DNA of 34,586 bases from IMG/VR virus record IMGVR_UViG_3300011116_001150, positions 1 to 34,586 of that record. The stretch is one strand, 5' to 3'. Below, piece by piece: positions 15,675 through 17,247 of the stretch (positions are counted from its first letter, which is position 1; every line of letters begins with the position of its first letter). The translations under genes and the position numbers were made by a program. This stretch comes from a virus. Below the pieces are notes generated by a model. The model was not told where the DNA came from. It saw only the letters and a program-made list of their open reading frames with translations, and did not search any database.

Positions 15675-15969
15675 ATTTTTAGATACAAAGACTAATGAAG
15701 TTTTTGAAACGATTATGAAGATTGCAGAGAGAGAAGAATTTCTCCTAAACAATCCTCATATTCAACCAGTAGTATCTGCACCAATGCTTGTGTCTGGTGT
15801 TTCTACAACAAACAAAATGCCTGATGGTTTTAAAGAGGTACTTTCTAAAGTTGCTGAGAAACATCCAAACAGTCCTGTTGCAGATAAACATGGCCGCAGG
15901 TCAGCAAAAGAAGCGAAAACAAGGCAGATTGTAAAAAAATATGCCGACAAAATAACGAAAAGTTCTTGA
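15661..15969 (+). CDS. FmdB-like protein lacking zinc-ribbon cysteines (102 aa)
   Basis: The start MPTYEFLDTKTNEVFETIMK is like the N-terminus of FmdB-family zinc-ribbon regulators (MPxYEF...). Those normally contain two CxxC pairs; this protein has no Cys at all, so it could not bind zinc in that way. The remainder is basic and helical (ADKHGRRSAKEAKTRQIVKK). I infer a structural or DNA-associated derivative. Overlaps the exonuclease start by one base (TGATG). Confidence 0.6.
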   Translation: MPTYEFLDTKTNEVFETIMKIAEREEFLLNNPHIQPVVSAPMLVSGVSTTNKMPDGFKEVLSKVAEKHPNSPVADKHGRRSAKEAKTRQIVKKYADKITKSS

Positions 15970-16643
15970 TGCAGTTTAATCATGTAAAACTTGAATCATT
16001 AAATTTTGATTTGACAGCCGTTACAACAGATAACGGAAGACAATATACAACACCAGAGGGTAAGATTTATCCTTCGGTAACTACTGTATTGTCGGAGTAT
16101 AATAAGAAAGCTATTTTTGAATGGCGAGATAGAGTTGGTGCCGAAGTAGCAAATAAGATTTCTAGGACAGCATCTGGTCGTGGTACTAAATTACACACCG
16201 TTTGTGAAAAATATTTACTCAATGAAATGAGTGATATGAAAATACAAACAATGATGCCTGATACGAAAGAATTGTTTTTTGCTTTGAAACCACATCTTGA
16301 TAAGAATATTGGCAACATCTATTCTTTGGAACAGGCTTTATATTCTGATGAATTGAGAATGGCAGGCAGAGTAGATTGTATTGCAGAATGGGATGGAAAG
16401 TTATCTGTAATTGATTTTAAAACTGCATCGAAGTCAAAAGATGAAAATTATATTTTGAATTACTTTATGCAATGTACCGCATATGCGAATATGTTTGAAG
16501 AAAGAACAGGTCAACCGATTGACCAGTTGGTCGTTGCTATAGCAGTAGTTGAAGATTTCCCACAGATATTTGTGAGAAACAAAACAAAGTATATACCAGA
16601 GTTAAATAAGTTTATAGATAGTTATTGGAAGAAATTGTCGTAA
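15969..16643 (+). CDS. PD-(D/E)XK exonuclease (RecB/Cas4-like)
   Basis: The ATG at 15969 is in a TGATG overlap. The 224-residue product has the nuclease core GRVDCIAEWDGKLSVIDFKT (about 135-155): Asp after GRV and DFK matching the D...(D/E)xK metal-binding triad. Upstream, an early helix with GTKLHTVCEKYL supplies the His/Glu often found in this family, and downstream QCTAYANMFEE matches the QxxxY motif. It likely degrades or trims DNA in recombination or host-DNA breakdown. The stop lies just before the tmRNA acceptor piece, so the mRNA and pre-tmRNA may be cotranscribed. Confidence 0.85.
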   Translation: MQFNHVKLESLNFDLTAVTTDNGRQYTTPEGKIYPSVTTVLSEYNKKAIFEWRDRVGAEVANKISRTASGRGTKLHTVCEKYLLNEMSDMKIQTMMPDTKELFFALKPHLDKNIGNIYSLEQALYSDELRMAGRVDCIAEWDGKLSVIDFKTASKSKDENYILNYFMQCTAYANMFEERTGQPIDQLVVAIAVVEDFPQIFVRNKTKYIPELNKFIDSYWKKLS

Positions 16644-16645
16644 TC

Positions 16646-16698
16646 CCTTCAAAGTGAAGGACTGTTGGACGGGAGTTCGATTCTCCCCACCTCCACCA
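16646..16698 (+). ncRNA. ssrA: tmRNA acceptor piece
   Basis: Contains a 6-bp hairpin CCTTCA-AAG-TGAAGG (16646-16660), ACTGTTGGAC, which can pair with the TAGCAG region of the coding piece (helix P2), the T-arm, and the 3'-terminal ACCA encoded in DNA at 16695-16698. The mature 3' end is charged with alanine in all known tmRNAs. Its 5' boundary is an estimate. Confidence 0.85.
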
Positions 16699-16709
16699 AA
16701 AGGACTTTT

Positions 16710-16862
16710 ATGTTTGAAAATTGGCATTGGGTTTATCTTTGGGGCATAGCAGTTTTTGTAAACTATATGTTCTGCCTTATAAAAAGTTTTTTTGATGGGG
16801 GTGACCTGGATTCGACAGCGGTAGATAGCAGAGACGGCGACACGGTAGGCGATGACCGTTAA
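16710..16862 (+). CDS. Small membrane ORF in tmRNA intervening segment, running into the coding piece
   Basis: ATG at 16710 with SD AAGGA right after the acceptor CCA. The first 26 residues (FENWHWVYLWGIAVFVNY and onward) look like a membrane helix; the remaining about 20 residues are read from the tmRNA 5' region and look random and acidic. Intervening segments are normally non-coding and removed. Either this is a small phage membrane gene that has fused into the tmRNA or a chance frame with a good SD. Confidence 0.4.
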   Translation: MFENWHWVYLWGIAVFVNYMFCLIKSFFDGGDLDSTAVDSRDGDTVGDDR

Positions 16863-17052
16863 TCAAGCAAAACATCTAAACGCAAACGATGAAAGATTTG
16901 CATTAGCAGCCTAAACACTGCTTAGGGTTTCGGATGGTTTCCTCGTAACAGAATAACCATCCACGAATTAGTTAGTCTTTACTTGGTGACAGAACCCGAT
17001 ACCCATAGGTGTCCTTGGGCTGTAGCGAAAGTGACGAATCTAATAATAGCAG
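16797..17052 (+). ncRNA. ssrA: tmRNA coding piece with tag reading frame
   Basis: Begins with GGGGGTG and the D-arm-like CCTGGATTCGACA. A pseudoknot-type stem CGGT/ACCG surrounds 16842-16858, just before the resume codon. After the tag, a long stem GGATGGTT/AACCATCC (about 16932-16963) and later CCCA/TGGG pairing (about 17000-17020) fit the pseudoknot domain. The 3' boundary is not exact; a T-run follows near 17057. Confidence 0.82.
16882..16914 (+). CDS. ssrA: tmRNA proteolysis tag ANDERFALAA
   Basis: Resume codon GCA at 16882, then codons for A-N-D-E-R-F-A-L-A-A and TAA at 16912-16914. The ALAA end is the signal for ClpXP-type proteases. I associate ANDERFALAA-type tags with betaproteobacteria, which points to the host; that is a remembered association. 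Confidence 0.9.
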   Translation, partial: ANDERFALAA

Positions 17053-17079: not shown

Positions 17080-17247
17080 ATGAAAGCAATTATTACTACA
17101 ATCGCAGCACTTTTCGCAGTAACCGCATTTGCAGCCGAGCCTGCAAAGAAAGAAGAAAAGAAGGCTGAAGCAGCTAAAGTTGAAAAGAAAGCTGAAGCAC
17201 CAAAGACTGATGCTAAAGCAGACAAGAAACCAGAAGCTAAGAAGTAA
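17080..17247 (+). CDS. Secreted Lys/Glu/Ala/Pro-rich small protein (55 aa)
   Basis: ATG follows AAAAGGAAAA. The first 18 residues (MKAIITTIAALFAVTAFA) are a classic Sec signal peptide with an AFA-A cleavage site. The mature part is a low-complexity run of K, E, A and P (EPAKKEEKKAEAAK and similar). It would be exported to the periplasm or cell surface. Similar tiny proteins occur in proteobacterial genomes, so it may have been acquired from a host. Function unknown. Located directly behind the tmRNA. Confidence 0.7.
   Translation: MKAIITTIAALFAVTAFAAEPAKKEEKKAEAAKVEKKAEAPKTDAKADKKPEAKK

Follow-up and report, generated by a model that had tools for sequence, protein, structure and literature searches.

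The window analysed in this work, i.e. the whole 34,586-nt stretch of DNA (a 34.6-kb virus record, incomplete contig), probably holds a working phage-encoded permuted tmRNA in which a gene for a small phage membrane protein has come to occupy the intervening segment that is discarded; from comparative sequence data and predicted folds, we put the probability of this reading at roughly 0.8. The original prediction had recognised the tmRNA as permuted, phage-borne and carrying a betaproteobacterial-type tag, all of which held, and had overlooked the open reading frame (ORF) in the intervening segment.

Identification and anatomy of the permuted tmRNA

The only gene that ARAGORN called in the window is a permuted tmRNA (tmRNA*) at 16606-17005(+) with the tag ANDERFALAA. 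RF01850 (beta_tmRNA) was the top-scoring Rfam model (158.2 bits, E 3.9e-49, gathering cut-off 84), its final 3' hairpin being poorly matched, and RF04321 (tmRNA_permuted) matched over its full length (1-213) with 147.5 bits (gathering cut-off 47), from position 16636 onwards. Both halves of the gene scored above the Rfam gathering cut-offs in this covariance search, which had been proposed as a check of the circularly permuted, two-piece form, and the scores, together with the ARAGORN call, bear that form out. The order of the pieces, the 7-bp stem, the T-arm, the CCA and the tag frame with its hydrophobic C-terminus ALAA are those expected of a permuted tmRNA. As predicted, the acceptor strands GGGGGTG/CACCTCC pair over 7 bp (7/7 pairs read from the sequence, G3.U70 wobble included). 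The end of the span first proposed (16645-17052) lies too far downstream, as the related locus L519 is alignable with the window tmRNA only up to about 16965. The features discussed below are as follows.

15966..16643, plus strand: PDDEXK/Cas4-like exonuclease gene directly upstream of the tmRNA, stop at 16641-16643 (phrog_298, E 1.4e-70)
16636 to about 16965, plus strand: complete permuted tmRNA gene, 3' end approximate (Rfam, ARAGORN, L519 alignment)
16636..16698, plus strand: tmRNA acceptor piece, with P2 strand TGTCG, T-arm, CACCTCC and ACCA (RF04321 match start, L519 comparison)
16636-16640 with 16838-16842, plus strand: P2 strands TGTCG/CGACA (read from sequence)
16688-16694, plus strand: acceptor 3' strand CACCTCC (read from sequence)
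16695-16698, plus strand: ACCA (read from sequence)
16695..16709, plus strand: predicted extension helix, 5' strand (ACCAAAAGGACTTTT), including the SD (fold z-score, group test, nested versus free-standing copies)
16699..16796, plus strand: intervening segment of 98 nt, absent from the mature tmRNA, its final TGAT preceding the expected RNase P site (sequence, Rfam)
16699-16704, plus strand: SD AAAGGA of the nested ORF, just behind the CCA end
16710..16862, plus strand: nested ORF, ATG at 16710, 29 codons within the segment (16710-16796) and run-on to TAA at 16860-16862 (homologues, codon-position bias)
16782..16796, plus strand: predicted extension helix, 3' strand (AAAAGTTTTTTTGAT), coinciding with the nested ORF's final codons, K-S-F-F-D (same tests as the 5' strand)
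16797..16965, plus strand, 3' end approximate: tmRNA coding piece, with GGGGGTG, D-loop-like CTGGATTCGACA, P2 strand, tag frame and 3' hairpin GGATGG..CCATCC (sequence, ARAGORN, Rfam)
16797-16803, plus strand: acceptor 5' strand GGGGGTG (read from sequence)
16882..16914, plus strand: tag reading frame ANDERFALAA, resume codon GCA, stop TAA at 16912-16914 (ARAGORN)

Genomic setting and phage relatives

The window is a fragment of a T4-like myovirus related to the pelagimyophages and Melnitz. It encodes gp32, gp59, gp4, gp2, tail tube, baseplate hub and wedge and tail-tube cap, and its baseplate gp6 is closest to those of the Pelagibacter phage HTVC008M (43 %) and the Methylophilales phage Melnitz (40 %), with 39-43 % identity over Melnitz and the pelagimyophages. 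These surrounding T4-like genes confirm that the tmRNA is phage-encoded; a prophage remnant or host fragment was ruled out on the same gene content and on the nature of the record, a virus contig.

The last 8 nt of the upstream exonuclease gene (TGTCGTAA) are shared with the tmRNA acceptor piece, and the encoded protein is 46 % identical to the PDDEXK nuclease of Melnitz (gene 83). Permuted tmRNAs are present in HTVC008M, Mosig and Melnitz. That of Melnitz is separated by two small genes from the PDDEXK nuclease upstream and is followed by the gp59 loader, i.e. it lies in the same exonuclease-tmRNA place as in the window, although its tag ANDNYVPVDYALAA is unlike ANDERFALAA. Since the three phages share a permuted tmRNA and Melnitz also shares its place, the gene appears to have long belonged to this phage group and not to have been acquired recently from a betaproteobacterium serving as host. 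Both the tag type and the best-scoring model are betaproteobacterial, and the same tag pattern occurred mostly under titles of Burkholderiales and other Betaproteobacteria among the matches listed, in line with the type first assigned to the tag. No match to SmpB (PF01668) was detected in the window, an incomplete contig, or in nine related phage records of up to 342 kb, and host SmpB is therefore the presumed partner of the window tmRNA. That this tmRNA might displace the host's own trans-translation or compete with it, as first suggested, is conjecture.

A promoter and terminator scan of the plus strand gave nothing useful. Downstream, at 17080-17247(+), a small gene whose product starts like a signal peptide and has a tail rich in Lys, Ala and Glu (MKAIITTIAALFAVTAFAAEPAKKEEKK...) lies in a stretch of ~300 nt missing from L519; the product had no PHROG match.

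Selection on the tmRNA

The exonuclease of L519 is 96 % identical in protein to that of the window. Between the two loci, the acceptor piece has undergone 5 changes in 63 nt, all at paired positions (5/5), and the coding piece shows 5 differences in 169 nt. One acceptor-stem pair (GGGGGTG/CACCTCC in the window, GGGGCTG/CAGCTCC in L519) and two T-stem pairs (GGGAG/CTCCC versus GGCGG/CCGCC) have changed, and as all three changes are compensated the tmRNA is considered to be under selection. The intervening segment of L519 is an unrelated hairpin of 62 nt, against 98 nt in the window. Compensated stems together with a swapped segment indicate that selection acts on the phage tmRNA.

A gene nested within the tmRNA precursor

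The intervening segment begins AAAGGACTTTT-ATG and its 29 codons (MFENWHWVYLWGIAVFVNYMFCLIKSFFD) remain open to the last base, which directly precedes the expected RNase P cut; from there the frame runs for 21 further codons into the tmRNA coding piece. Nested homologues were found in L239/L245, L596, L597 and six identical ones, L601, L602, L605, L607 and L609/L612. The nine distinct nested copies each have 29 codons, from ATG to GAT/GG (the slash marking the expected cut), with the stop absent inside the segment, and they sit behind differing acceptor stems and tags. By means of a search pattern not tied to tmRNA, free-standing homologues with their own stop (MFENWHWVYMWGILVVVNYMFWIVKSLFDNVKE or ..KSLFDNVKE, then the stop), a form of 33 aa, were retrieved among L610-L621; most lie just upstream of a tmRNA having another segment, and L615/L621 have no called tmRNA beside them. 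The protein core is kept across the family and the run-on tails past the cut vary. Between close pairs, changes fall mainly on third codon positions (e.g. 2, 0 and 5 or 3, 2 and 10 changes at the first, second and third positions). Judged on this conservation, on the coding signature and on the free-standing homologues, the nested frame is a real gene, the strongest evidence being that the free-standing copies have their own stop.

The nested peptide of the window has one hydrophobic segment (17-residue mean 1.98). It gave no match in Pfam or by tblastn against INPHARED, and its best PHROG match was weak (phrog_14813, unknown function, E 0.0045). This product is most safely described as a putative small phage protein anchored in the membrane.

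Nested genes in other phages

Phage tmRNA genes had been called rare, which is overstated: two-piece tmRNAs have been described in phages, 53 being suggested among 133 unique phage tmRNAs (PMC9004378), and more than 80 viral contigs with a permuted tmRNA were found among the matches listed in one tag scan. Intervening segments were examined in three samples drawn without regard to nested frames, by a tag pattern, an acceptor pattern and exonuclease neighbours, and the frequencies given here hold for these samples among the matches listed. A nested ORF was counted under a strict criterion, i.e. an SD-led frame starting 8-15 nt after the CCA and reaching the segment end, with dinucleotide shuffles as control. 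Relaxed ORF criteria without the SD were dropped because shuffles often reach them (5.3 expected by chance of 52 in one sample). The strict combination occurred in 16/143 unique viral segments versus about 0.6 expected in shuffles (~25-fold). It occurred in 0/49 cellular segments, a weak contrast since the cellular sample is small, mostly of the alpha type and made up of shorter segments (median 32 nt, with 10 segments reaching 56 nt or more).

The nested proteins belong to unrelated families (membrane peptides, helical, cysteine-rich), many of them with one hydrophobic segment. For about ten further families of nested ORFs, homologues lie elsewhere than in called segments among the loci examined, though a few of these may be segments of tmRNAs missed by ARAGORN; one protein, for instance, is nested in L251/L268 and lies beside the tmRNA in L571. 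The C-x-C..C-x-x-C protein in L251/L268 looked by eye like a Bfd-type ferredoxin, an assignment that was rejected as Pfam gave no such match.

Nested frames end in two ways: in about half of the families by a UGA one base before the expected cut, otherwise by a GAT/GGG run-on, which besides the window is found in L251/L268, L173 and Melnitz. The intervening segments of HTVC008M and Mosig are short (44-49 nt, versus 98 nt in the window), and that of Melnitz, with 142 nt, resembles the window's in holding an SD-led frame. This frame of 41 codons (MZ577097, 46096-46218; L627/L633), unannotated in its record, lies inside the SsrA feature and ends with GAT/GGG at the expected RNase P site. It is identical in all four Melnitz records, no other homologue of it was found, and the text of the Melnitz paper (PMC9004378) does not mention the intervening segment. 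Lying under the tmRNA feature, as in the Melnitz record, nested genes escape annotation.

Several further observations were made on these loci. L523 and L232 have tandem segments: behind an ORF or hairpin comes a remnant that resembles an acceptor piece and contains CACCA, and then another hairpin, as though entire cassettes of acceptor and segment recombined or inserted. The hairpin segments of L024 and L052 hold a GGTTCGAATCC T-arm-like motif, possibly a tRNA remnant. Unusually long tags, e.g. ANADTFEIGTFSFTGNTVKGGVAVAA (26 residues), occur on the phage permuted tmRNAs of L596, L605 and L144. Two permuted tmRNA genes each are present in the cellular L500 and L502 (genomes G206 and G293), the second copies sharing the tag ANDNVALNEVRLAA and having longer segments. 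Xanthomonas phage XacN1 (AP018399) gave two permuted tmRNA matches of equal score, at 37231-37530 and 356026-356325, perhaps lying in long terminal repeats.

The predicted extension helix

The ends of the intervening segment are predicted to pair and thus to prolong the acceptor stem. In a group test on the first and last 14 nt of each segment, the UGAU being left out, 21 ORF-type segments reached a mean of -8.1 kcal/mol versus -4.2 with swapped ends and -3.2 when shuffled. For the gene of the window, the helix energy is -8.1 in nested copies versus -3.3 in free-standing copies, a difference that could partly reflect the need of the tmRNA for the helix and not selection for SD pairing. The fold of 16689-16803 has a z-score of -4.07, with 0/200 shuffles as stable, and that of 16640-16870 a z-score of -1.88. 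The SD and the last codons lie within the helix, and not in the loop, in nearly all nested families. In the full precursor, the predicted unpaired probability of the SD is about 0; as long as the nascent transcript has not reached the 3' strand, the SD is predicted to be more open in parts, the GGA core still being mostly paired otherwise. Because of this difference, translation of the nested ORF and maturation of the tmRNA may be read as competing.

Proposed mechanism and alternative readings

In the model that we infer, the transcript runs in the order exonuclease, acceptor piece, nested ORF and coding piece, and the 7-bp acceptor stem and the ~14-bp extension helix would close the intervening segment. 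RNase P would cut before G16797 and 3'-processing would leave the CCA at 16698, yielding a two-piece tmRNA that would receive alanine (G3.U70) and act together with host SmpB. Since its ribosome-binding site is within the extension helix, the nested ORF would be translated before or during processing, and folding of the tmRNA would switch it off. As the window-family ORF has no stop in the segment, processing would leave a non-stop message of 29 complete codons. What we infer here comprises processing, translation, its repression by folding, the coupling of the nested gene to the tmRNA and whatever the peptide may do. In its fullest form, the intervening segment would be a regulated nest, where the shared helix makes translation and maturation mutually exclusive and the non-stop message of the window family is policed by the tmRNA that its own cut releases; we consider this form unlikely. 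Were it true, the peptide would respond to the trans-translation state during infection.

The chances are about even that the nested gene is real and uncoupled, i.e. that the segment is a tolerant landing site, the helix being kept for tmRNA processing and the nascent transcript translated without regulation. In favour of this, the nested genes are mutually unrelated and the same helix is held by hairpin and cellular segments without a gene; moreover, genes nested in one phage adjoin the tmRNA in others, and the segment swaps freely among close relatives. The burial of SD and last codons in the helix in nearly all families argues against it, though a freer SD with an end helix would be possible, and Melnitz nearly has one.

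It is also conceivable, at rather long odds, that ORF and tmRNA form a self-limiting non-stop unit, the tmRNA made by the same cut tagging the product for proteolysis, so that the peptide would appear chiefly under saturation of trans-translation or before the tmRNA has been formed. The endings point that way in the window family, where 9/9 distinct nested copies lack a stop, the free-standing copies have one and the tails beyond the cut differ, and the frame ends likewise in L251/L268, L173 and Melnitz. However, with a UGA before the cut in about half of the nested families, the non-stop end does not hold in general, and the GAT may only mirror a structural UGAU element.

Finally, an ordinary permuted tmRNA in which only the hairpin matters and the frame arose by chance in AT-rich DNA is very improbable: most viral segments are indeed plain hairpins without an SD-led frame and relaxed criteria do yield many chance frames, but the same protein stands free with its own stop, which largely refutes this reading, it is conserved across different tmRNAs, and the strict counts far exceed the shuffles, so that a chance ORF was rejected.

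A real gene within the discarded segment of a working tmRNA would give the phage tmRNA a second output, the "discarded" part being a site where phages keep small genes. The cultured phage Melnitz makes this idea directly testable.

Comparison with known systems

The tmRNA itself is a further phage permuted tmRNA, of a type already published. One close counterpart is the betaproteobacterial permuted tmRNA (RF01850, the best Rfam match), a cellular example with the same tag ANDERFALAA being L473. In cellular genes the segment forms a short hairpin or measures a few nt and lacks an SD-led frame, whereas the window segment has one.

Two regulatory systems resemble the nested ORF in the way they work and have no sequence relation to it. 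The hok mRNA, a type I toxin mRNA, encodes a small membrane peptide and has its SD paired with its own 3' end; for the window ORF, no antisense RNA, toxicity or rescue activity is known. ArfA of E. coli is made from a non-stop message under tmRNA control (PMC10107115), and the sequence layout of the window (GAT/GGG at the expected cut) would allow ArfA-like regulation.

In the literature searched, no earlier description was found of protein genes lodged in the intervening segment of a tmRNA, most subscription journals and preprints lying outside the search, and the nested arrangement recurs in many phages with unrelated genes. The tmRNA database paper (PMC11915505), which in the passages found does not mention protein genes in intervening sequences, describes one permuted tmRNA with a repetitive element there and another with a tRNA-Ala gene, called a unique feature. 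The latter case resembles the window in having a gene inside the intervening segment of a permuted tmRNA and differs in being a single instance of an RNA gene, whereas the type found in the window comprises protein genes of many unrelated families in phages.
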